64,000 bases of DNA from Thiohalobacter thiocyanaticus (GTDB lineage: Bacteria > Pseudomonadota > Gammaproteobacteria > Thiohalobacterales > Thiohalobacteraceae), in the NCBI RefSeq assembly GCF_003932505.1, contig NZ_QZMU01000001.1, positions 2,551,001 through 2,615,000 of the forward strand, given 5' to 3'. Within the stretch, counting starts at the first letter, position 1. Every line of letters begins with the position of its first letter. The position numbers and the translations under genes are program-made. A model generated the notes under the pieces. It was not told the origin of the DNA. It was given only the letters and a program-made list of their open reading frames with translations, and searched no databases. Below are positions 1 to 60,498 of this stretch, piece after piece.

Positions 1-2310
1 GGCCAGCGGAGCGACCCGCTGCCAGATCTCCTCGGTGATGAAGGGCAGCAGGGGATGGGCCAGGCGCAGCAGAGCCTCCAGCACCTGCACCAGGGTGCGG
101 CGGGTGCCGCGCTGTCGGGCCGCGGGGCTGTCCGGGTTGTTCAGTACCGGTTTGGACAGTTCCAGGTACCAGTCGCAGTATTCGTTCCAGGTGAATTCGT
201 AGATGGCCTGGGCGGCATGATCCAGCCGGTAGGTCCGGATCGACTCGATCACCTCCTGTTCGGCCTGCTGCAGCCGGGCCAGAATCCAGCGGTCGGCCAC
301 CGTGAGTTCAACTTCTGTATTCCCGAGCTGGCCGCAGTCCCGGTCCTCGGTGTTCATCAGCACATAGCGGGCGGCGTTCCACAGCTTGTTGCAGAAGTTG
401 CGGTAGCCCTCGATGCGGCCGAGGTCGAAATTGATGTCGCGCCCGGTGGAGGCGAGCGCGGCGAAGGTGAAGCGCAGGGCGTCGGTGCCGAAGGCAGGGA
501 TGCCGTCGGGGAAGTCCCGCCTGGTCTGCTGTTCGATCTTTTTCGCCATCTGTGGCTGCATCAGTCCGCGGGTGCGCTTCTCCACCAGGGCGTCCAGACT
601 GATGCCGTCGATCAGGTCGATGGGGTCGAGCACATTGCCCTTGGACTTGGACATCTTCTGGCCGTGGGCGTCACGCACCAGGCCGTGGATGTAGACCTCG
701 CGGAAGGGGACGTCCTGCATGAAGTACTGGCCCATCATCACCATGCGGGCGACCCAGAAGAAGATGATGTCGAAGCCGGTGACCAGTACGGAAGTCGGGT
801 ACCAGGTCTGCAGTGCCTCGGTGCGCTCGGGCCAGCCCAGGGTGGAGAAGGGCCAGAGCGCCGAGGAGAACCAGGTATCGAGCACGTCGCTGTCCTGCTC
901 CAGTGCCACGTCCTCATCGAGCTTGTACTTCTCCCGCGCCTCTTGCTCGCTGCGGGCGACATAGCCGTTGCCGGCCTCGTCGTACCAGCAGGGGATGCGG
1001 TGGCCCCACCAGATCTGGCGCGAAATGCACCAGTCCTGGATGTTGCGCATCCATTCATAATAGGTGTTCTTCCAGTTGTCCGGCACGAAGCGGATGCGGC
1101 CGGACTCCACCGCCTCGATGGCCGGCAGGGTGATGCGCGCCCGGCCGCCGGGACGGCCGTCGGCCTGTTCGTCGCGGGTGAGATCCACGAACCACTGGTC
1201 GGTGAGATAGGGCTCGATGACCACGCCGGAGCGGTCGCCGCGCGGGACCATCAGTTTGTGGTCGTCGATCTTCTCCAGCAGACCGAGTTCCTTCAGGTCA
1301 TGGATGATGGCGTCGCGCGCCTCGAAACGGTCCAGCCCGCGATACTTCTCCGGGCCGTTGTCATTGATGGACGCGTCCACGGTGAAGATATTGATCAGCG
1401 GCAGGTCATGGCGGCGGCCGACCTCGTAGTCGTTGAAGTCGTGCGCCGGGGTGATCTTGACGCAGCCGCTGCCGAATTCGGGGTCGACGTAGTCGTCGGC
1501 AATGACGGGGATCTCACGGCCCGTCAGCGGCAGGGCGATGGTTTTGCCGATCAGATGCCGGTAACGCTCGTCCTCCGGATGCACGGCCACGGCGGTATCG
1601 CCCAGCATGGTCTCGGGCCGGGTGGTGGCCACGATGAGATAGTCCTCGCCGGCCGTTCCCGGCGTCCTGCCTCCCACGGCACTCGCACGTCCCTGTGCAG
1701 CGTCGGCCAGGGGATAGCGCATGTGCCACATATGGCCCTGCTCCTCCTCGGAGACGACCTCCAGGTCGGAGACGGCGGTGTGCAGCACCGGGTCCCAGTT
1801 CACCAGCCGCTGGCCGCGGTAGATCAGGCCGTCCTCGTAGAGCTGCACGAACACCTCGCGCACGGCCTCGGACAGCCCTGCGTCCATGGTGAAGCGCTCG
1901 CGCGACCAGTCCAGCGAGGCGCCCATGCGTCGCAGCTGGCGGGTGATGGTGTTGCCGGACTCATTCTTCCATTCCCAGATGCGCTCGATGAAGGCCTCGC
2001 GGCCCAGGTCGTGGCGGGTCCTGCCCTCGGCATTGAGCTGGCGCTCGACCACCATCTGGGTGGCGATGCCGGCATGATCCGAGCCGGCCTGCCACAGGGT
2101 GTTGTCGCCGCGCATGCGGTGGAAGCGGGTCAGGGCATCCATGATGGTGTCCTGGAAGGCGTGGCCCATGTGCAGGCTGCCGGTGACGTTGGGCGGCGGG
2201 ATCATGATGCAGAAGGGCGCGCCTTCGCCGCTGGGAGCGAACCAGCCCTTGGCCTCCCAGGTCTGGTACCAGCGCTGCTCGATGGCGTGGGGGTTGTAGG
2301 TCTTGTCCAT
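1..2310 (-). CDS. valS: Valyl-tRNA synthetase (3' end beyond window)
   Basis: Class I aminoacyl-tRNA synthetase that charges tRNA-Val in the cytoplasm and edits misactivated threonine. The visible 770 residues begin [16 protein letters not shown]. The HIGH-type motif is in [12 protein letters not shown] (about residues 39-50) and the KMSKS loop is in [16 protein letters not shown]. The CP1 editing domain lies between them ([24 protein letters not shown]). The anticodon-binding helical domain follows, and the gene leaves the window at [11 protein letters not shown], so the C-terminal coiled coil is outside. The family is usually about 920-950 aa. The ATG at 2310 matches the family start. holC lies upstream in the same direction, as in many gammaproteobacteria. 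Confidence 0.97.
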
Positions 2311-8832: not shown

Positions 8833-8908
8833 TGGCGCTCCCTAGGGGACTCGAACCCCTGTTGCCGGCGTGAGAGGCCGGAGTCCTAGGCCACTAGACG
8901 AAGGGAGC
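8833..8908 (-). tRNA. tRNA-Glu (CUC anticodon)
   Basis: On the minus strand the sequence folds as a full cloverleaf. The acceptor GCTCCCT pairs with AGGGAGC, followed by discriminator G and an encoded CCA. The anticodon stem CCGGC/GCCGG holds loop CTCTCAC, giving anticodon CTC. The T arm contains GGTTCGAGTCC. The TCGTCTAG and GGCC segments match bacterial tRNA-Glu. It lies just upstream of pcnB on the opposite strand. Confidence 0.95.
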
Positions 8909-8924
8909 GACGGCTTTCTGCGCC

Positions 8925-10349
8925 ATGCGGGTCGCGGCGCAGGTGGTGTATTATACGCGGAGTCATCCGGGAAACAATCACCGCGGCCGCATCGTTCGCG
9001 CCGGGCGGGCCCGGCCGGTTGCATTGAAACAGAAGGATCCATCCACTATCAGCGCTCAGTCCCCCAACATCATCCCCCGCGGCGAACACGGGATCTCCCG
9101 TTCCCTGATCAGTCCCAATGCCCTCAAGGTGCTGAACCGGCTGCATCAGGCCGGGTTCCAGGCCTGCCTGGTCGGCGGCGGGGTGCGCGACCTGCTGCTG
9201 GGTCGCGAGCCCAAGGACTTCGATGTCGCCACCGACGCCACGCCGGAGCAGATCCGCCAGCAGTTTCGCAACTGTCGGCTGATCGGGCGGCGCTTCCGCC
9301 TGGCCCATGTACTGTTCGGGCGCGAGGTGATCGAGGTGGCGACCTTCCGCGCCGCCTCCGATCCGGAGACCGAGGACGAGGACGAGACCCAGGTCAGCGA
9401 CGCCGGCCGGCTGCTGCGCGACAACGCCTACGGCAGTATCGAGGAGGACGCCTGGCGGCGCGACTTCACGGTCAACGCCCTGTATTACGATATCAGCGAT
9501 TTCAGTATCCGCGACTATGTCGGTGGCATGGAGGATCTGCGCGCCGGCCGGCTGCGCATCATCGGCGAGCCCGAGGCGCGCTTTCGCGAGGACCCGGTGC
9601 GCATGCTGCGCGCGGTGCGCTTCGCCGCCAAGCTCGGTTTCACCCTGGACCCGGAGCTGCAGGCCCTGATCCCGCAGCTGGCGCCGCTGTTGCAGGACAT
9701 CGCGCCGGCGCGCCTGTATGAAGAGGTGCTGAAGCTGTTCCACGGCGGGGTCGCACTCAACACCTTCGAGATGCTGCGCCACTACCACCTGTTCGCGCCC
9801 CTGTTCCCGCTCACCGAGGCGGTGCTGGCCGAGGAGGAGAATCACTTTCCGCATACCCTCATCAGCCATGCCCTGGCCAATACCGACAGCCGGGTGGCCG
9901 AGGGCAAGCCGGTCACTCCGGCCTTCATCTTCGCCGCCCTGCTGTGGGAGCCGATGCGCCGCGAGATGCCCGACCCGGACCAGCCCGACATGAGCGAGAT
10001 CCAGGCCATCCAGATCGGCGGTGCGCGGGTGGTCACGCAGCAGGCACGGCATGTCTCCATCCCCAAGCGCTTCAGCCTGCCGATGCGCGAGATCTGGTCG
10101 TTGCAGCCGCGCTTCCTCCGCCGCCAGGGCCGCCGGGCCCTGCAGCTGCTGGAGCACCCGCGTTTCCGCGCCGCCTATGATTTCCTGCTGCTGCGCTGCG
10201 CCGCCGGCGAGGTGGAGCAGGAGCTGTGTGACTGGTGGACCGAGATCCAGGATCAGGCCCCCGAGGCGCGCGCCGAGCGGGTGGCCGCGGGCCGTCCGCG
10301 CAAGCGCCGCCGGCCCCGCAGGCGCAAGCCCCGATCCGAACATGGCTGA
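8925..10349 (+). CDS. pcnB: Poly(A) polymerase I
   Basis: Adds 3' poly(A) tails to RNA and so promotes decay. It belongs to the class II CCA-adding/poly(A) polymerase superfamily. The nucleotidyltransferase signature LVGGGVRDLLLGREPKDFDVAT is plain, followed by RRFRLAHVLFGREVIEVATF and DAWRRDFTVNALYYD, then the RNA-binding helical domain and a very basic tail (RKRRRPRRRKPR) typical of PcnB. The first ATG at 8925 gives 474 aa but lies 17 bp from tRNA-Glu. A TTG at 9024 preceding KQKDPSTIS is an alternative start, since homologues align only from about PRGEHGISR. It overlaps folK by 8 bp. Confidence 0.92.
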   Translation: MRVAAQVVYYTRSHPGNNHRGRIVRAGRARPVALKQKDPSTISAQSPNIIPRGEHGISRSLISPNALKVLNRLHQAGFQACLVGGGVRDLLLGREPKDFDVATDATPEQIRQQFRNCRLIGRRFRLAHVLFGREVIEVATFRAASDPETEDEDETQVSDAGRLLRDNAYGSIEEDAWRRDFTVNALYYDISDFSIRDYVGGMEDLRAGRLRIIGEPEARFREDPVRMLRAVRFAAKLGFTLDPELQALIPQLAPLLQDIAPARLYEEVLKLFHGGVALNTFEMLRHYHLFAPLFPLTEAVLAEEENHFPHTLISHALANTDSRVAEGKPVTPAFIFAALLWEPMRREMPDPDQPDMSEIQAIQIGGARVVTQQARHVSIPKRFSLPMREIWSLQPRFLRRQGRRALQLLEHPRFRAAYDFLLLRCAAGEVEQELCDWWTEIQDQAPEARAERVAAGRPRKRRRPRRRKPRSEHG

Positions 10350-10860
10350 GATCGACGCCGCCACCGCCTGGGTCGGGTTGGGCAGCAATCTCGACGATCC
10401 GGTCGCGCAGGTCAGCCGTGCGCTGGGCGAGCTGTGCGGAATCGACCAGACCTACCTGCTGCAGGCCTCCAGTCTCTATGCCAGTCCGCCCATGGGGCCG
10501 CCCGATCAGCCCGAGTATGTCAACGCCGTGGCCGGTCTGCTCACCACCCTCACGCCAGAGGCGCTGTTGGACGCCCTGCAGGCGATCGAGCAGGCCCATG
10601 GCCGGGTACGCGCGGGGGAGCGCTGGGGGCCGCGCACCCTGGACCTGGACCTGCTCCTCTACGACGAACTGCGCCTGGAAACCGAGCGCCTGACGCTGCC
10701 GCATCCCGGCTTGCATGAACGTGCCTTCGTGTTGCACCCGCTGGCCGAGGTCGCGCCCGATCTGGTGATTCCGGGCCGCGGCACGCTGCGGGCGCTGCTG
10801 CGGGACTGTCCGGCCGGGGCGCTGAGGCCCATCGGCAAGGCCGGACCGGCTCAGGCATAA
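10342..10860 (+). CDS. folK: HPPK, 6-hydroxymethyldihydropterin pyrophosphokinase
   Basis: Transfers pyrophosphate from ATP to 6-hydroxymethyl-7,8-dihydropterin in folate synthesis. The 172-residue product begins MAEIDAATAWVGLGSNLDDP. The family motifs are present: the pterin-binding LGSN, LYASPPMGPPDQPEYVNAVA, and the catalytic signature RWGPRTLDLDLLLYD (about residues 93-107) with the two magnesium-binding aspartates. The start overlaps the pcnB end, and the stop overlaps the next ATG by one base. pcnB-folK followed by pan genes is the classical gammaproteobacterial order. Confidence 0.95.
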   Translation: MAEIDAATAWVGLGSNLDDPVAQVSRALGELCGIDQTYLLQASSLYASPPMGPPDQPEYVNAVAGLLTTLTPEALLDALQAIEQAHGRVRAGERWGPRTLDLDLLLYDELRLETERLTLPHPGLHERAFVLHPLAEVAPDLVIPGRGTLRALLRDCPAGALRPIGKAGPAQA

Positions 10861-52696: not shown

Positions 52697-53104
52697 ATGG
52701 AAGACATGACCCCCAGCCGGCCGTACCTGATCCGTGCCATCAACGAATGGATCATCGACAATGGCCAGACCCCCTACCTGCTGATCAACGCCGACTATCC
52801 CGGCGCGGAAGTGCCGCGCCAGTTCGTCGACGAGGGCAAGATCGTCCTCAATATCAACCCCACCGCCGTCGCCGGTCTGGAGCTGGGCAACGACTACATC
52901 ATGTTCAGCGCCCGCTTCCAGGGCCGCGCCTGGGAGATCGTCATCCCGGTGCCCGCCGTGCTCGCCATCTACGCCCAGGAAAACGGCCGCGGCATGATGT
53001 TCAACGAGGAAGAATACGGCCCCGAGCCGCCCGACGGCGGCGGCCCGGACCAGGATAAGTCCGACGACGACAAGGGCCGGCCTTCGCTCAAGGTCGTCAA
53101 GTAA
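52697..53104 (+). CDS. sspB: Stringent starvation protein B, ClpXP adaptor
   Basis: Adaptor that binds ssrA-tagged proteins and delivers them to ClpXP. The product is 135 aa. The dimeric substrate-binding domain includes [49 protein letters not shown] and [33 protein letters not shown]. An acidic flexible linker is followed by the ClpX-docking tail [17 protein letters not shown] at 52706 is an alternative start. Its last 8 bases overlap the convergent integron integrase gene. Confidence 0.95.
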
Positions 53105-54509
53105 CCCCGCCCCGACCGATATCCAGCGGACTGCACACGCCCACCCCGGGCCTGCTCATCACATGGGTGTAGATCATGGTGGTGGAGACGTTGGCATGCC
53201 CCAACAGCTCCTGCACCGTGCGGATGTCGTGCCCGGCCTCCAGTAAATGCGTGGCGAAGCTGTGCCGCAAGGTATGGCAGCCCACCCGCTTGTTCAGCCC
53301 GCAGGCTGCGGCAGCCCGCTTCACGGCCTTCTGGAGGGCACTCTCGTGCAAATGATGGCGGCGGATCATGCCGCCGTAAGGGTCTGCCGCCAGACGTGTG
53401 GATGGGAACAGATACTGCCATTTCAACTCCCGCCCGGCATTGCGGTATTTGCGTGCCAGGGCATCGGGTAATCTGACCTCCCCGTGCCCGGCCGCGAGAT
53501 CCTCACGATGCAGTCGTTCCACCGTTCTGATCTGCTCCTTCAGCGAGTCCTGAAGACTGAGGGGCAGCGGGACATACCGGTCCTTGTTGCCCTTGCCGCG
53601 GTGGACATGGATACGCCCGTTGGCGAAATCGAGATCCAGGACCCTGAGTCTCAGCCCTTCCAGCAGGCGCATACCGGTTCCATACAGCAGGGATGCGATC
53701 AGATGTGCAGTGCCTGTGAGATGTGACAGCAGGGCAGTGACCTCGTCCCGGCTGAGCACCACCGGCAGATTCTTCGGCCGCCGGGCGCGGACAAAGCTCT
53801 CAAGATCGCCGGGATCACGCCCAAAGACATGCTTATAGAGAAAAACCAGGGCATTGAGGGCCTGGTTCTGAGTGCTGGCACTGACATGGCGGATGACAGC
53901 GAGATGATCCAGAAACGCCCTGATCTCGGTCGGGCCTACCGACTCGGGTGCCGCGCCCTTGCAGAACAGGATGAAACGGCAGATCCACTGCTCGTAACTC
54001 TGTTCGGTGCGGTAGGCGAGACCGCGGGCACGGATCTCGGTGGTGAAACGGATCAGCAGATCGCGGTGACTGGCCCTGATATGGTTGAGTGGCCCGCTGC
54101 CTGAGCGTTCCTTGAGATGGCCGAGCTCATCCGGTGTGAGCTGCCTTGCCTGAGTGGGATGACCGCTCTCCAACTCACGGGAAGCGTCGATCCAGTATTG
54201 CCAGTCAATTTTCTGACACAACGGGGAAGCCAGAAGATCGCAGTACAATATCCGGATAGCATGAATTTTCTGCCGAAACTGCCAGTCAGTGAGCCGTTTC
54301 CGGCAGCCTATCGTTTCCAGATACTGGCTGATGTCTGCGGCTGAGAGGGTTCTGATCCCGCGCCCTCGTTGCGCCTCGATAAAGCCTTCGATATGCTTGA
54401 CGAACCAGCGCCGCTGCTTCTGGGGGATGCCGGCATTATCCAGGTATTTCAGGTAATTATCATAAAAACGAGTCACGGCGGGATCGCCGTCGCCAGGGGA
54501 TTCGGACAT
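53097..54509 (-). CDS. intI: Integron integrase (IntI), 470-aa long form
   Basis: Tyrosine recombinase that moves cassettes between attC and attI. Catalytic residues are Arg281 ([11 protein letters not shown]), Lys in the [10 protein letters not shown] hairpin, His412 and Arg415 ([12 protein letters not shown]), His438 (LLGHANVST) and nucleophile Tyr447 (MIYTHV). The IntI-specific extra domain is at about 333-382 ([18 protein letters not shown] to [13 protein letters not shown]). Typical IntI is 320-340 aa; here about 135 extra N-terminal residues ([19 protein letters not shown] to [12 protein letters not shown]) look like a second SAM-like DNA-binding domain before the usual one at about 150-235. 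The ATG at 54509 has AAGGAG upstream. Confidence 0.95.
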
Positions 54510-55045: not shown

Positions 55046-55112
55046 GCCTAACAATGCCTTCCAGCGGACGCAGTCGCTCATGCGCCTGCGCCGCTGAAGG
55101 CAGCCGTTGGGC
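55046..55112 (+). other. attC1
   Basis: Starts GCCTAAC (55046-55052) and ends GTTGGGC (55106-55112), 67 bp. The interior GCGGACGCAGTCGC...GCGCCTGCGCCGC folds back on itself. GCCTAAC is complementary to the TTAGGC that opens cassette 1. Confidence 0.88.
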
Positions 55113-55115
55113 ATT

Positions 55116-55421
55116 ATGAAACTGTCAGACGAAGAACGGACACTGGTGGCGCAATTACTAAAGCGCGAAAACCTGTATTACCGTATGCGGTACGCAAATC
55201 TTATTCTCGGTATTAGTTGTTTGGTTATAGCATTTGGTGGCTTTGGCTACCTTATGTCTTTATCTAGAGATGCCGCAATGCAGTTTGGCAATCATCCAAT
55301 AATGTATCTGCTTGGTATTATTGGCGGGGCAGGCATAGGAATGGCATATAGAGGCTGGAAGGGAAATCCTCAAACCAAGCTGCTGCTTTCCATCGCGGAG
55401 AAACTGGATGGTACAGAATAG
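55116..55421 (+). CDS. Cassette 2: small two-helix membrane protein
   Basis: A 101-residue protein of unknown function. I chose the ATG at 55116 (MKLSDEERTLVAQLLKREN), three bases after the attC1 core; there is no clear ribosome site, which is common in cassettes. Charged N-terminal helix, then two hydrophobic helices (about 27-48, LILGISCLVIAFGGFGYLM, and 62-80, IMYLLGIIGGAGIGMAYRG), then a short polar tail. Both ends are probably cytoplasmic. Confidence 0.7.
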   Translation: MKLSDEERTLVAQLLKRENLYYRMRYANLILGISCLVIAFGGFGYLMSLSRDAAMQFGNHPIMYLLGIIGGAGIGMAYRGWKGNPQTKLLLSIAEKLDGTE

Positions 55422-55422
55422 T

Positions 55423-55487
55423 GCCCAACAAAGCGCTCGTGTGGGACGCTCCGCTTCGCTGAGCGCCCCACAGCTTCAACGTTAGAA
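55423..55487 (+). other. attC2
   Basis: GCCCAAC (55423-55429) to GTTAGAA (55481-55487), 65 bp. Stem parts GTGTGGG/CCCAC and GCGCTC/GAGCGC are visible. GCCCAAC is complementary to the TTGGGC opening cassette 2. The stop codon of the cassette 2 gene lies immediately before it. Confidence 0.85.
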
Positions 55488-55501
55488 GGCTATTGAACAT
55501 C

Positions 55502-55921
55502 ATGAGGATAACCGTAGCTCTTATCTTAACTGCCTTGATTGGGGGCTGCAGTCACCCTGAACCAGAAGAATCGACGAAATATTACGACTCAAAAACCTAT
55601 CAGCGGTTTGTAGAGAAACTCGATGAGCACGGAGTCGAGTACCGAAAGGGAAAGGATCTGAATGTATTTTATCCTGTAAGCCAATCTCAAGCAGTTAGAG
55701 CAATAGCTAGTGAGGTTAACGCGGAATACCACCCAGGATGCGGTAGCAGCTTCACATCCGCGGAAAAACAGAAAGCTATGGAGGCAGCACTTAAGGCGAG
55801 AGGTATTCCATATACAGTTGTGGACCTTGATGCCGGCCCCTCAATCACCTGTTCGCCTGAGCATAGAGAGGCGTTCCACGAACTGTTTATAACTGTTCTG
55901 AGAGGGGGGTACGATGAATAA
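55502..55921 (+). CDS. Cassette 3: putative lipoprotein of unknown function
   Basis: A 139-residue exported lipoprotein. The ATG at 55502 opens MRITVALILTALIGGCSHPEP, with lipobox IGGC; a TTG three codons earlier is less likely. The mature part (DSKTYQRFVEKLDEHGVEYRKG, NVFYPVSQSQAVRAIASEVN, then KQKAMEAALKARGIPYTVVDLDAG) has two segments of the same shape, each a helix followed by GxxY-type strands, so it may be a duplicated alpha/beta module. Two cysteines (HPGCGSS, SITCSPEH) could pair in the periplasm. Confidence 0.7.
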   Translation: MRITVALILTALIGGCSHPEPEESTKYYDSKTYQRFVEKLDEHGVEYRKGKDLNVFYPVSQSQAVRAIASEVNAEYHPGCGSSFTSAEKQKAMEAALKARGIPYTVVDLDAGPSITCSPEHREAFHELFITVLRGGYDE

Positions 55922-55930
55922 AGAAACGCC

Positions 55931-55987
55931 TTCTAACAAGGCGCGCAACCCGGACGGCTTCGCCGCCGGTTCGCTCGATCGTTAGGT
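55931..55987 (+). other. attC3
   Basis: TTCTAAC (55931-55937) to GTTAGGT (55981-55987), 57 bp. The start breaks the RYYYAAC rule at one base but is exactly complementary to TTAGAA, which opens cassette 3. Stem GGACGGC/GCCGCC is internal. Confidence 0.85.
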
Positions 55988-56008
55988 GCTAATCAATACT
56001 GATACATA

Positions 56009-56476
56009 ATGAAGCTGTCCGAAGATTACCGTACCCGACCAATTCGATTTCTTGAATTGTGGGAAATCGATGAGTGGAGACTAAAGGTGTATGGAATCAC
56101 CTATACTGAGGATGTGCTTGATCAGACGCTTGTGGATGCTGCTCGCCAGGTCACATCAGAACGCTTGAGAGAAAGTGCGCTGCAGACGAATCACTATGCT
56201 GTTGGATTTGTGGGCATTCACCAAGGAAAAACTGGAAATTTCGTTTTTGTAGACTGGTGGGCAGACGAAAACGAATTGCACCACCATGTATATGTATCTC
56301 CATCAGAAGATCCTTCAATGCTGGAATATATGACACCATCTGGGCTGACTGCTTGCGCATGGGATCTATTTCTAATTGGTCACGAACGAGACGCATGGGT
56401 CAATCATGTGCTTAAGCAAAGTGAGGCCCCTAGTCTGGAAGACTATCTGAGTGACAAGCTGAATGATAATGTATAA
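56009..56476 (+). CDS. Cassette 4: hypothetical cytoplasmic protein
   Basis: A 155-residue soluble protein that I do not recognise. It begins MKLSEDYRTRPIRFLELWEID. Aromatic and acidic clusters include WRLKVYGITYTED, GNFVFVDWWADENELHHHVYVSP and LTACAWDLFLIGHERDAWVNHVL. No signal peptide, membrane helix or nucleotide motif is seen. It resembles single-domain integron cassette proteins known only from structural surveys. The gene ends just before the broken attC4. Confidence 0.65.
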   Translation: MKLSEDYRTRPIRFLELWEIDEWRLKVYGITYTEDVLDQTLVDAARQVTSERLRESALQTNHYAVGFVGIHQGKTGNFVFVDWWADENELHHHVYVSPSEDPSMLEYMTPSGLTACAWDLFLIGHERDAWVNHVLKQSEAPSLEDYLSDKLNDNV

Positions 56477-56562
56477 CGCACCTAACAAACGCATGCAGTC
56501 GGACTGATCCTGCCCCGAAATAATTGACACCTCTTTGAACTGAGCTATCAAAGAGGTGGAAC

Positions 56563-56874
56563 ATGAAAAGGAAAGAAAAGCACACATTCTATAATTTTCA
56601 ATTCAAGCATACGGCGGTTACGATCACCAATCACCCAAATATACAGTCCATCGACGTTGCCGAGGCACTGAGCATCCACCCCATTATGCTCTACCGGTGG
56701 CGCCAGGAGATGCGGGAGGGGAAATTGGACAATAATGATCAGGAGGCGCGTTCTCGGGACAAACTTCTCCAAGCTGAGAAAAAGATCAAGAAGTTAGAGA
56801 AGGAATTGCGGCAGGTCAGGGATGAAAACGCAGTGCTGAAGAAGGCAGAGAGGGTATTCCCGGGAAAAAAGTAG
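56563..56874 (+). CDS. IS3-family transposase OrfA
   Basis: A 103-residue helix-turn-helix protein (MKRKEKHTFYNFQFKHTAV; PNIQSIDVAEALSIHPIMLYRW) with a C-terminal leucine-zipper-like coiled coil (LQAEKKIKKLEKELRQVRDENAVLKKA). It ends at a TAG directly after the slippery sequence A-AAA-AAG (56865-56871). A -1 slip there extends it into OrfB to make the OrfAB transposase. Confidence 0.9.
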   Translation: MKRKEKHTFYNFQFKHTAVTITNHPNIQSIDVAEALSIHPIMLYRWRQEMREGKLDNNDQEARSRDKLLQAEKKIKKLEKELRQVRDENAVLKKAERVFPGKK

Positions 56875-57728
56875 ATGCCTTCCGGTTCATCGAGCAGCAT
56901 GTCAAACGAAGCTCCGTAGCTGCTCTGTGCCGGAAGTTGGGTGTTACCCGTGGCGGGTTCTATGCTTGGCGCAATCGAGGTCAATGCCAACGCCGTGTGG
57001 AAGACGAGGCACTGCTTGAACAGATCATCCAGGTGCACCGTAAGAGCCAGGGCCGCTACGGTTATCCCAGGGTGCACCAGGCGCTGCGCCAGAATGATAT
57101 TTTATGTGGGCGTAACCGCGTCGCTCGGCTCATGCGCGAAAATGGTATTGCCGCCAAGATGGCGCGTCGCTTTCGGCGGCACCGTCACCGGCACCACCTG
57201 TTTCGGGATAGCACCAACTTGTTGCTGGACCGGGAACCGACAACGGGTGCGAACCAGGTCTGGGTAGGAGATATCACATTTATCAGCGTAGATGGGAAGT
57301 GGTCATATCTGAGCACGGTAATGGATCGGCATACGCGCCAGATTATCGGTTGGAGCTTTGCAAAGGACCGGTCTGCCGCCCTGGTTCGAGAGGCGCTCCT
57401 GATGGCAGTGCAAGCCCATGCACCGACAGCTGATACCATATTTCATTCGGATCAAGGCTGCGAGTACGCCTCAAAGGAATATCGTCGGGTGCTTGAATCA
57501 TTTGGGTTGCGGGTGAGCATGAGCCGAAAAGGACACTGCTGGGACAACGCCTATATGGAATCATTTTTTCATACTCTGAAGACAGAGATGATCTACTTCC
57601 AGAAATTCAAAACCCTGGAAGAAGCGACGGCCTACATTATCGATTACGTTCGTTTTTATAATAGCGAGCGTTTACACTCTGGCCTGAACTACAGAACTCC
57701 CGACTGGGCAGCAAGCGAAGCAGCATGA
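56871..57728 (+). CDS. IS3-family transposase OrfB (made as OrfAB by -1 frameshift)
   Basis: Integrase-core transposase. In the -1 frame the protein continues VDAFRFIEQHVKRSSVAALCRKLGVTRGGFYAWR. The HTH_21-like region (HRKSQGRYGYPRVHQAL) and the DDE catalytic domain follow: Asp in WVGDITFI, Asp in HSDQGCEY and Glu in NAYMESFFHTLKTE. The end NSERLHSGLNYRTPDWAA is typical. Isolated initiation at a TTG (56937) is possible but frameshift fusion is the known mechanism in the family. All three catalytic residues are present. Confidence 0.9.
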   Translation, partial: VDAFRFIEQHVKRSSVAALCRKLGVTRGGFYAWRNRGQCQRRVEDEALLEQIIQVHRKSQGRYGYPRVHQALRQNDILCGRNRVARLMRENGIAAKMARRFRRHRHRHHLFRDSTNLLLDREPTTGANQVWVGDITFISVDGKWSYLSTVMDRHTRQIIGWSFAKDRSAALVREALLMAVQAHAPTADTIFHSDQGCEYASKEYRRVLESFGLRVSMSRKGHCWDNAYMESFFHTLKTEMIYFQKFKTLEEATAYIIDYVRFYNSERLHSGLNYRTPDWAASEAA

Positions 57729-57825
57729 CGGGTGTCAATTATACTGGGGTAATATCAGACAAAATCATTCGCGACGCTCGTGATTTGGCCGCTGATGCTA
57801 GGCGTTATACACCAAGGAGAACTTC

Positions 57826-58290
57826 ATGAACTATTGGCGCATGCAGCTTCATCCAGATGACGCGGCGAATGCCGTCCGCCATACAATGAGGTGCCTTGGG
57901 CTAGGATATATCGGCTTGGATTTCGCCCAACCGCCCGGGGATCTTACCGATGTGCAGTCAGAAGAGATTCCCCAGAGCCAAAGAGACTATTGGGACTTTG
58001 CTCATGTAATGGCTGAAGGAGATTATGTCCTTATCGTCGCGCATCATTATCCATGCGCACTCGTGAAGGTCACAGGTCCCTACAACTACATCCGTGATCC
58101 TGTCGGAGCGCTCGGTGTGTGGTTTCGGCATTTTCGCCGGATTGAGCCAATAGGGTACTACGCAGACCTCGTCACCAACCCCGCTCAATGGCAGCAAACA
58201 ACTATGACAGATACGATTTCGATACTCAGAGATGAATCGAGTTTATCGTACACGCTTATCAGGTCATGGCGGTCGCAAGTTGGTGTATAA
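57826..58290 (+). CDS. Cassette 5: PUA/EVE-like protein (tentative)
   Basis: A 154-residue soluble protein. It begins MNYWRMQLHPDDAANAVRHTM after AAGGAGAAC. The pattern (YWRMQ opening; GLGYIGLDF; FAHVMAEGDYVLIVAHHYPCALVKVTGPYNYIRD; HFRRIEPIGYY) recalls the PUA-superfamily EVE/Mrr-NT-type domains that read modified bases and often sit at the N-terminus of restriction enzymes. No nuclease or GTPase domain is attached. The assignment rests on motif shape only. Its stop codon lies inside attC5. Confidence 0.5.
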   Translation: MNYWRMQLHPDDAANAVRHTMRCLGLGYIGLDFAQPPGDLTDVQSEEIPQSQRDYWDFAHVMAEGDYVLIVAHHYPCALVKVTGPYNYIRDPVGALGVWFRHFRRIEPIGYYADLVTNPAQWQQTTMTDTISILRDESSLSYTLIRSWRSQVGV

Positions 58291-58357
58291 CCATGCCTTG
58301 CAGCCGACGGCGGTTCCGCTGCGCTTCACCGCCGCGGGCTGAAAGCAGGCGTTAGGC
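58285..58357 (+). other. attC5
   Basis: GTATAAC (58285-58291) to GTTAGGC (58351-58357), 73 bp. Stem CTTGCAGCCG...CGGGCTGAAAGCAGG is visible. GTATAAC is complementary to TTATAC opening cassette 5, and its TAA doubles as the stop codon of the cassette gene. Confidence 0.85.
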
Positions 58358-58367
58358 ATCCGGAATC

Positions 58368-59345
58368 ATGAAGTCGAGCCTGCACAGATCGATGAGACAC
58401 GACCTGCATGACTACATGAGTCAACTTAGCGTCAAGATGGATGCTGAGTACTCCCGTATCCGAAAGAGCGCGGCTGGCGATCCGGGGACAGCGGGGGATG
58501 AAGGTGAAGAGAATTGGGCTCAGCTTCTGCGCGAATGGCTGCCTCCCGCTTATCGTGTTGTGACAAAGGGGCAACTGATAGATGGAAAAGGCCAGTTGAG
58601 CCCACAAGTTGACGTCATTGTTCTTAAGCCGAGTTACCCAGCGGCCCTGCACCACAAAAAGAAGTACTTCATCGCCGGCGTGGCGGCTGTTTTCGAATGC
58701 AAACTCACTTTGAAGCGCGCGGATCTGAGCAAGGCTACTGCAACCTGTGTCGCCATCAAGAGACTGTCCGGCGTACGTGAAGGCACCCCTTACAAGGAAC
58801 TGATGACAGGGCCCATCTATGGTGTGCTCGCGCACTCGCATCAGTGGAGAGGCCCCGACGCTACACAAACCATCGACGATCACCTTGTTGCCGCAGACAG
58901 CTCACATGTCGGACACCCACGCGAGACTCTAGATCTTGTCTGCATCTCCAATCTTGCAAGTTGGGTTGTAAGCAAGAGCCCACTTTTCGATCCTCAGGAA
59001 GAGATTGACGACGCGGCTCGGGCCAAGTTGAATCCCAAAGGAGTCCCGGCAACAACATATATGTGTCACGCCGGAGCTAAGGGGGCGTTTGCGGATACTG
59101 AGTTCGAGAATTTCACGCCCGTCGGCGTCTTCGTCAGCCAGTTGTTGGTCAAACTCGCGTGGGATGACGTACAACTCCGCGACATCGCCAGTTATTTCTT
59201 GTCTGTGGAGTTCTCGCGGTCAGCGGTCGGTCAGTCGCGACATTGGGATTGGTCCGTTTACTCAGTCGGCCTCCGCAGGAAGCTTTCGCTGTCCAGGCTA
59301 CACACTGAGATCGACTGGAATGAATGGTCCGCGACGATTGAGTGA
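58368..59345 (+). CDS. Cassette 6: DUF6602-like putative PD-(D/E)XK nuclease
   Basis: A 325-residue soluble protein, the largest in the array. After a helical start (HDLHDYMSQLSVKMDAEYSRIRK) comes GDEGEENWAQLLREWLPPAYRVVTKGQLIDGKGQLSPQVDVIVLKPSYP and then VAAVFECKLTLKRADLSKA. The GxxGE...VDVIV...FECK spacing (about residues 45-110) fits the PD-(D/E)XK nuclease core of DUF6602-type proteins. The rest (LDLVCISNLASWVV, LVKLAWDDVQLRDIASYF) is an all-family C-terminal part. Related domains occur near defence genes, but activity here is inferred only. Confidence 0.7.
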   Translation: MKSSLHRSMRHDLHDYMSQLSVKMDAEYSRIRKSAAGDPGTAGDEGEENWAQLLREWLPPAYRVVTKGQLIDGKGQLSPQVDVIVLKPSYPAALHHKKKYFIAGVAAVFECKLTLKRADLSKATATCVAIKRLSGVREGTPYKELMTGPIYGVLAHSHQWRGPDATQTIDDHLVAADSSHVGHPRETLDLVCISNLASWVVSKSPLFDPQEEIDDAARAKLNPKGVPATTYMCHAGAKGAFADTEFENFTPVGVFVSQLLVKLAWDDVQLRDIASYFLSVEFSRSAVGQSRHWDWSVYSVGLRRKLSLSRLHTEIDWNEWSATIE

Positions 59346-59355
59346 GAGCGCGAAT

Positions 59356-59427
59356 GCCTAACCATTCCATCGAGGGGATGTCCAACCGGCCACGCCGGTC
59401 GGCCACGCCTCATGTCAAACGTTATGC
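59356..59427 (+). other. attC6
   Basis: GCCTAAC (59356-59362) to GTTATGC (59421-59427), 72 bp. Central palindrome CCGGCCACGCCGGTCGGCC. GCCTAAC is complementary to TTAGGC opening cassette 6. Confidence 0.87.
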
Positions 59428-59441
59428 TGCAAGCTATCACT

Positions 59442-59467
59442 TGTAACCTGTAACGACATGGGTTACA
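59442..59467. promoter_or_regulatory. Putative HigA operator
   Basis: TGTAACC (59442-59448) and its inverted copy GGTTACA (59461-59467), with an extra GTAAC between, lie just upstream of higB. HigA-type antitoxins usually repress their own promoter at such a palindrome. It also shows that this cassette has its own promoter region. Confidence 0.45.
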
Positions 59468-59476
59468 CTCCATTAC

Positions 59477-59755
59477 ATGATACGGAGCTTCAAGCACAAA
59501 GGCCTTGAGAAGTTCTTTCTGAAAGGAACTAAGTCAGGAATTCAGGCCAAACATGCCGCCAGATTGAGGTTGATACTCGGCCGGCTGAATGCTGCTTCGA
59601 ACCCGCAGGACATGGACCTTCCTGGGCTCAAACTACATGAGCTCACTGGTCGTCGGAAAGGGGGCTGGTCCGTTTGGGTTAGTGGTAACTGGCGAGTGAC
59701 ATTTCGTTTTGTGGAAATGGATGCGGAAGCTATTGATTATGAAGATTATCATTGA
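59477..59755 (+). CDS. higB: Cassette 7: HigB-type toxin
   Basis: RelE/HigB-superfamily mRNA interferase, 92 aa. The fold and key regions match: MIRSFKHKGLEKFFLKGTKSG, ARLRLILGRLNAASNPQDMDLPGLKLHELTGRRKGGWSVWVSGNWRVTFRFVEMDAEAIDYEDYH. Catalytic basic residues are in HELTGRRKG and NWRVTFRF; the ending DYEDYH is typical of the HigB/Txe-like group. It precedes its antitoxin, the toxin-first order characteristic of higBA, with a 9-bp gap. Confidence 0.93.
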   Translation: MIRSFKHKGLEKFFLKGTKSGIQAKHAARLRLILGRLNAASNPQDMDLPGLKLHELTGRRKGGWSVWVSGNWRVTFRFVEMDAEAIDYEDYH

Positions 59756-59764
59756 GGTGTACTG

Positions 59765-60052
59765 ATGAAGATGCACAATCCCCCCCATCCCGGTGAAATA
59801 CTCAGAGAGCTATGCATCGAGCCAATGGGGTTGAGTATTACTGAGGCCGCTGAAGCGCTTGGCGTTAGCAGAAAAACATTGTCCGCTATTTTGAATGGCC
59901 ATGCAGGCATTAGTCCTGAAATGGCAGTTCGTCTTTCTTTGGCATTCGGAACGTCTTCCGAGAGTTGGCTGAATCAGCAATCCCAGTATGACTTATGGGA
60001 GGCTGAGAAAAAGCGCAAGTCCTTAAAAGTGAGGAAGCTATCAGCAGCATAA
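59765..60052 (+). CDS. higA: Cassette 7: HigA-type antitoxin
   Basis: A 95-residue XRE-family DNA-binding antitoxin. It begins [40 protein letters not shown], a standard HigA opening, with HTH at about 26-50 and [35 protein letters not shown] following. It neutralises HigB and represses the operon. The stop TAA is part of the attC7 start GCATAAC. Confidence 0.95.
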
Positions 60053-60104
60053 CAACGGGTCCCAGGCGGCGCAAAATACGCGCGCCTGAACCCGAATGTT
60101 ATGT
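60047..60104 (+). other. attC7
   Basis: GCATAAC (60047-60053) to GTTATGT (60098-60104), 58 bp. Stem GGCGGCGCAA/ATACGCGCGCC is visible. GCATAAC is complementary to TTATGC opening cassette 7. Confidence 0.87.
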
Positions 60105-60123
60105 CGCCCGTGGGGCGCCGCTA

Positions 60124-60402
60124 ATGAAACCGGCGACGAAAACCAAGTTTTTGTGGACGACCGCTTCGTTCTGCGGTGTTGCAGCGCTGGTACTTGCGGT
60201 GCTGGCATTCGTGCTGATAACAGGCGGTGCGTATCCAGCTGAGGGCTCCGGTTCATTGGGTCATGTCGGTATGGTTATCGCCGGCATCATTGCCGCGTTT
60301 CTTGGTATCTTTTGTGGAGGCCTGGTTCTTGTATGCGCGTCCCACGTCAAAACCATCAAAAATTCGAACAAGCTGACTCCGAATGGCGGAAAACGTGAGT
60401 AG
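60124..60402 (+). CDS. Cassette 8: small membrane protein
   Basis: A 92-residue protein with a short basic N-terminus (MKPATKTKFLWTTAS) and two hydrophobic helices: about 14-34 (SFCGVAALVLAVLAFVLITGG) and 47-72 (GMVIAGIIAAFLGIFCGGLVLVCASHV), then a polar basic tail NSNKLTPNGGKRE. No recognised family. A hydrophobic pair with a glycine-rich second helix is common in cassette products. Confidence 0.65.
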   Translation: MKPATKTKFLWTTASFCGVAALVLAVLAFVLITGGAYPAEGSGSLGHVGMVIAGIIAAFLGIFCGGLVLVCASHVKTIKNSNKLTPNGGKRE

Positions 60403-60408
60403 CGTTCC

Positions 60409-60498
60409 ACCTAACTCAAGCTGGAACGGACGGGCCGCCAGCACCGCACCAGATCGTCAGCTGAATGTGTCAGATCGCCGTTCACCAATGCGTTAGGA
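60409..60498 (+). other. attC8
   Basis: ACCTAAC (60409-60415) to GTTAGGA (60492-60498), 90 bp. It is long, with a central GACGGGCCGCC region. ACCTAAC is not the exact complement of TTATGT opening cassette 8 (two bases differ), unlike attC1-7. Confidence 0.75.

Follow-up and report, generated by a model that had tools for sequence, protein, structure and literature searches.

The window, a 64,000-nt stretch of the genome of Thiohalobacter thiocyanaticus, contains an integron whose integrase gene (53097-54509, minus strand) encodes a protein of 470 aa that matches the model TIGR02249 with 446 bits. The match spans residues 152-463; the N-terminal 150 aa may contain another SAM-like domain (PF13495, matched in two stretches). 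The cassette array (55046-60498, plus strand) comprises seven intact attCs and a split one. The intact sites were located by a scan (55046-55112, 55423-55487, 55931-55987, 58285-58357, 59356-59427, 60047-60104, and 60409-60498), which is imperfect, as it also gives background matches with scores of at least 40 elsewhere in the window and near a second copy of the element described below; the seven sites aligned too poorly for an attC covariance model. The plus-strand ORFs of cassette 4 (56009-56476, 155 aa) and cassette 5 (57826-58290, 154 aa) have no Pfam or NCBIfam matches at 0.01. Among the cassettes further downstream, an ORF at 58368-59345 encodes a DUF6602 protein, and the cassette at 59477-60052 encodes a HigB-like toxin together with an HTH protein that is probably its antitoxin.

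Cassettes 4 and 5 are separated by an insertion sequence of the IS3 family (56505-57757, plus strand, 1253 bp). It has TG...CA termini and terminal inverted repeats (56505-56532 and 57730-57757) that are identical at 21 of 28 positions, and it is flanked by a target duplication GAC on the left (56502-56504) and right (57758-57760). The orfA gene (56563-56874, plus strand) encodes an HTH_Tnp_1 domain, and orfB (56937-57728, plus strand, -1 frame) encodes an rve-type DDE transposase with the residues D112, D172, and E208 and a clade-diagnostic E176. A slippery heptamer (A_AAA_AAG, 56865-56871), recognized from sequence only, should allow a -1 frameshift into orfB; the predicted OrfA-OrfB fusion has 388 aa and a DD(35)E triad. 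Inverted repeats with TG...CA ends, combined with a short target duplication, are characteristic of the IS3 family, as are overlapping orfs of the kind that appear, from sequence and reading frames, to be joined at the heptamer. OrfB matches the IS3-family model NF033516 with 304 bits (cut-off, 160), OrfA by itself with 46 bits, and the domains found on the two ORFs are HTH_Tnp_1, rve, and HTH_21. Their profile matches include neither an IS110-type model (at 0.01) nor a reverse transcriptase/maturase domain, and a sequence search of the PDB at 1e-5 gave zero matches. Members of the IS3 family transpose by a copy-out-paste-in mechanism via an IS circle.

The sequences on either side of the element form the two halves of an attC. 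The left half (56480-56504) consists of R'' (ACCTAAC, 56480-56486) and the L'' arm, includes the last extrahelical base (A56503), and terminates in the first GAC; the right half (57761-57810) comprises the apical part, L', and R' (GTTATAC, 57804-57810). R'' is an exact RYYYAAC, and R' fits GTTRRRY at three of the four variable positions. When joined, the flanks score 38.7 with the attC detector, which is matched by 1 of 1000 dinucleotide shuffles (0 of 500 in another run) and falls inside the range of the seven intact attCs of the window (38-56). The predicted fold of the empty site leaves G16, T20, and A24 unpaired (top-strand letters, numbered from R''), which is the same spacing as that given for the extrahelical bases G16, T20, and T24 of VCR2/1 in the relevant passages of PMC2727003. 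The GAC duplication covers position 24, the last extrahelical base of the predicted fold.

The first bases of a circular cassette come from its own attC. R'' of the split attC has its complement in the opening bases of cassette 4 (GTTAGGTGC), and R'' of the attC that follows has its complement in those of cassette 5 (GTTATACACC), so that the cassette rule agrees with the flanks being a single site. The sequence-only reading had placed an element of the IS3 group, with intact OrfA and OrfB and a clean GAC duplication, inside one attC. All of this holds: profile, domains, and DD(35)E triad assign the element to the IS3 family, both copies of GAC are present, both orfs are intact and apparently linked at the heptamer, and the score, the fold, and the complementarity of the cassette starts agree on one attC. 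A search of 11 genomes of the family gave no IS-free version of the junction between cassettes 4 and 5. The same search yielded one relative of the cassette-4 protein (59%), with no attC within the 700 nt behind it, and zero relatives of the cassette-5 protein.

Related elements and their insertion sites

The only other full copy found in the genome (C1:483270-484520, minus strand, 1251 bp) is located 2.1 Mb from the window copy in contig coordinates. It also lies inside an attC, which differs in sequence from that of the window on both sides, and it is flanked by GAC on both sides, 18 nt past the AAC of R'' and in the same orientation as the window copy. The joined attC, downstream of a predicted HNH-nuclease gene, scores 33.5, which is matched by 15 of 1000 shuffles. 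The 12 kb scanned around this copy contain no convincing second attC, although the scan alone leaves one possible, because it also gives matches as high as true sites at 8894-9014 (within a long ORF) and at 10411-10522. The presence of both full copies (two of two) in attCs is hard to put down to chance; with attCs taken to occupy 0.3% of the genome, a figure assumed as a generous bound rather than counted, the probability would be about 1 in 100,000. In the second copy (L004:5271-6521), a 2-bp deletion merges orfA and orfB into one frame of 387 aa, so that its transposase may be made without frameshifting. A remnant of the right end of the element (C1:1993233-1993282; L005:5234-5283; 86% identical) is found just upstream of a gene that by eye resembles msrA, in surroundings without a recognizable attC.

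Relatives of OrfB were collected from genome contigs (80 of 143 kept), genomes sampled from the host's order, class, and phylum, viral contigs, plasmids, and extra copies in multi-copy genomes. This yielded 137 loci, 107 of them with both flanks available. In a maximum-likelihood tree of 77 OrfB rows, all 18 rows labelled as attC insertions at that stage belong to a single group with 23 members (100/95). The second tree has 71 rows, with four plasmid relatives and L150 added and 11 rows thinned (among them L123, a near copy of L096); it again contains a group of 23, of which 20 carry the attC label (100/97). The labels were assigned by eye, and the second tree adds those of L150, L108, L102, and L106 and removes that of L140; both trees were midpoint-rooted for drawing only. 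Members of the clade come from the class of the window, the Gammaproteobacteria, to which Candidatus Tenderia electrophaga also belongs, from betaproteobacterial contigs, from one further contig of another class of the same phylum, from one Bdellovibrionales contig, and from two Gemmatimonadota contigs, and thus represent the phyla Pseudomonadota, Bdellovibrionota, and Gemmatimonadota. Position 176 of OrfB, four residues past the second catalytic D, is E in 23 of 23 clade rows and in 0 of 48 others, where Q is most common.

The association with attCs was assessed with a detector that compares an arm-alignment score with those of dinucleotide shuffles; an earlier detector based on MFE folds was dropped, as it was too blunt and its null mixed true attC halves. 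With automatically set ends and a limit of 16 in 500 shuffles, 15 of 24 clade sites pass, compared with 1 of 83 sites of other IS3 elements (L133); 14 of the 15 are sound, since the right end of L108 is masked and its ends were set inside the IS. With ends set by hand for part of the clade sites and a limit of 20 in 1000, 14 of 24 clade sites pass, as does 1 of the 83 others (Fisher, 2e-10), and the list of passing sites holds L150 where the automatic list holds L106. The automatic figure is the fairer one, because hand-set ends favour the clade and the two sets overlap. Ten of the 24 clade sites fail at 0.02 in this second count, and among these the attCs at L092, L094, L142, L150, and L108 were called by eye; in part of the data, labels assigned by eye and hand-set ends favour the attC hypothesis.

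Inspection by eye of 27 clade sites identified both halves of an attC at 19 (with masked bases between them at L108), the right half only at five (L010, L087, L093, L102, and L106), and the left half only at one (L140). Two sites are not attCs, which means that the targeting is not absolute: L091, the closest relative found (60% identity), lies with a GAC duplication within an ORF that appears by eye to be patatin-like, and L118 is inserted in an apparently beta-helix-like ORF. A neighbour of L091 resembles, again by eye, a CBASS-type nucleotidyltransferase.

Multiple copies within a genome occupy different attCs also outside the host of the window element. In genome G250, whose second contig is a plasmid of Candidatus Tenderia electrophaga (CP013100.1), this is the case for three of three identical copies (0, 6, and 0 of 1000 shuffles), and in genome G141 for two of two (9 and 6 of 1000). 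Among 72,556 plasmid records, 2877 match OrfB of the window at 1e-40, all with identities below 60%; of the 40 that were listed, four regions viewed by eye (H1, H2, H6, and H24) show no attC insertion, and none of them falls into the clade. A plasmid search with the protein of L100 at 1e-70 gave one record and a search with that of L008 zero records, so that the clade is unseen in mobile resistance integrons at these limits. The viral contigs contained a single relative of OrfB (33%).

Insertion position and target recognition

Because most of the relatives that could be examined also reside in attCs, this IS3-family branch apparently seeks out integrons, as opposed to having landed there by accident. 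It is highly probable that the attC itself is the target, and the window element very likely belongs to an IS3-family clade that is directed at this site. The sequence-only reading, correct on the family, the single attC, the GAC duplication, and the orfs, had missed the attC as the likely target.

Folds were predicted for eight sites of the +18 type; in these, the insertion lies at a GA whose A is predicted to be unpaired with a probability of 0.78-1.0, with the insertion point set by hand to within two bases and with the best fold of several sites differing from the full textbook hairpin. L019, L058, L108, L124, and L140 fall outside this set of eight. The bases at the insertion in the eight sites are GGAC, CGAC, GGGA, or GGAT. 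Members of a further sub-group (C) are inserted nearer to the tip or in the right arm of the attC, away from GA(C). A comparison of fold energies between 22 clade sites and 58 other IS3 targets gave a borderline result (p = 0.05), which is not taken as support. Of the same sites, 7 of the 22 in the clade and 22 of the 58 outside it show a 3-bp duplication. With a borderline fold test and a 3-bp duplication at only 7 of 22 sites, recognition of the folded form is something that we infer rather than observe. The orientation was judged by the cassette ORFs: an ORF of at least 110 aa that starts at most 60 nt after R' was found in the direction of the transposase at 14 of 20 attC sites and in the reverse direction at 2 of 20, although the detector misplaced R' at L108 and at two of the 14 (L087 and L142).

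We propose that the IS circle and its transposase would capture the DNA of an attC that is probably in a folded state, or extruded as a hairpin, at the time. In the sub-group of the window element, the IS ends would be joined at the GA(C) that bears the last extrahelical base, giving rise to the 3-bp duplication. Insertion beside this base in a fixed orientation would leave the IS with the L box on one side and the variable attC tip on the other, and the IS would be transcribed with the cassettes. The integron would offer the IS landing sites outside genes, and the IS would supply the array with repeats and possibly with an altered attC.

Recognition of the folded hairpin rather than of a linear motif is about as likely as not. 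A transposase that reads a motif in double-stranded DNA (for instance, GGAC within the L'' arm), irrespective of folding, is a serious alternative, if with a little less than even probability. The recurrence of GGAC and similar bases at the eight folded sites would be expected in this case, L091 is inserted after GCGGAC in a coding sequence, and the clade-wide fold test was borderline. However, a motif as short as GGAC must be frequent in genomes, yet most of the copies examined are located in attCs, including those of sub-group C, which uses attCs without the GA(C) position. Moreover, the A at the insertion is, in the predicted folds, a structurally defined extrahelical base.

In two further scenarios, target choice would be only apparent. 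Random landing of an IS in an attC was rejected in view of the second copy in the genome and the clade test. Already disfavoured is the notion that the landing sites of IS3 elements are random and that copies persist in arrays because such insertions are harmless. Although arrays do carry IS elements of several families, including IS3, according to parts of PMC11089894, such tolerance is very improbable. Although attCs occupy little of an array, 25 of the 27 clade sites inspected by eye show an attC or half of one, and with the detector 1 of 83 sites of IS3 elements outside the clade passes; the insertion position recurs across several sub-groups, and the second copy occupies an attC without a convincing second one in the 12 kb scanned around it. 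Equally hard to credit is a single old insertion that was carried along with a mobile cassette, without repeated transposition. Cassettes move, those bearing an IS could be copied, and the right attC halves at L087 and L120, which are from different genomes, are similar; however, the attC halves around the copies in the genome of the window, in G250, and in G141 differ on both sides, and the GAC and GGA duplications at the two copies in the window genome and at L006 are intact.

Consequences for the array and relation to other attC-associated elements

Judging from the sequence of the split site, the IS lies close to where the L stem gives way to the variable terminal structure, with R'' and R', L'' and L', and the extrahelical bases retained. 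Insertion at position 24, the last extrahelical base, would thus keep the features contacted by the integrase and enlarge the variable tip. In folds predicted for the full 1337 nt, the two arms remain paired, by 19 pairs in the top strand and 18 in the bottom strand. When the 65-bp variable tip of an attC was replaced by three bases, bottom-strand recombination increased only 1.6-fold or decreased only 2.4-fold (PMC2727003); the passages concerned do not extend to a tip of 1.25 kb. It is possible that cassettes 4 and 5 are locked together, as the sequence-only reading stated, and it is also possible that an attC with such a giant tip still works. A more far-reaching scenario, in which the insertion spares the attC, appears doubtful: the R and L boxes, the spacer, and the extrahelical bases would stay, the IS would replace the tip, and its inverted repeats could close the stem, so that an IS of a hairpin-specialized IS3 lineage would hitchhike on a functional cassette and be spread by both transposase and integron. 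The outward promoter activity suggested by the sequence-only reading is without support, since a crude scan of positions 56480-57850 detected zero sigma-70-like sites (shuffle mean, 1.4).

Insertion sequences that enter attC sites were reportedly treated by Tetu and Holmes in 2008 and by Post and Hall in 2009. The IS1111-attC group of the IS110 family (e.g., ISKpn4 and ISPst6) enters the attC at a specific place, as stated in parts of PMC11187229, and attC targeting by IS1111 elements is mentioned also in passages of PMC11089894 and PMC12444791. The window element resembles this group in its choice of attCs but is not a member. In the IS1111-attC group, the transposase is of the DEDD type, target choice is RNA-guided, and insertion is at one end of certain attCs, whereas the window element has an IS3-family DDE transposase, inverted repeats, and a 3-bp duplication, and is inserted close to the tip, within the left arm. 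Group IIC-attC introns, described in parts of PMC7923331 as mobile elements specialized on attC hairpins, are retroelements that are inserted mostly at R'' and in the opposite orientation to the cassettes; by contrast, the window element is a DNA transposon in the same orientation as the cassettes.

Elements of the IS3 family have been encountered in cassette arrays before. Two copies in the superintegron of Vibrio cholerae differ from the window element in that one lies in the coding sequence of a cassette and one in the last cassette, without target duplications, and attC insertion is absent from their description in the passages of PMC11023631 concerned with them. IS3 accounts for 23% of the cassette-associated transposases in the corresponding part of PMC11089894, which credits attC targeting to the IS1111 group. 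Searches of an open-access library turned up no paper recognizable as a report of an attC-targeting IS3 lineage. If our interpretation is true, a DDE transposon of the IS3 family would be the third, unrelated mobile lineage that lands at attCs, beside IS1111 elements and group IIC introns. Such a lineage would provide a system for asking how an IS3-type transposase gains target specificity, with E176 near the second catalytic D as a starting point, whether folded DNA is recognized in vivo, and what amount of foreign DNA an attC tolerates without losing its ability to recombine.

Two of the clade sites may hold more than one element. At L087, which is from the same genus as the window genome, the right end of another IS3-like element is located just upstream, apparently in the same attC. 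Immediately upstream of the IS3 element at L106, beside the right half of the attC, is a sequence that by eye resembles a transposase of the IS110 type and that may represent an IS1111-attC element in the same site.
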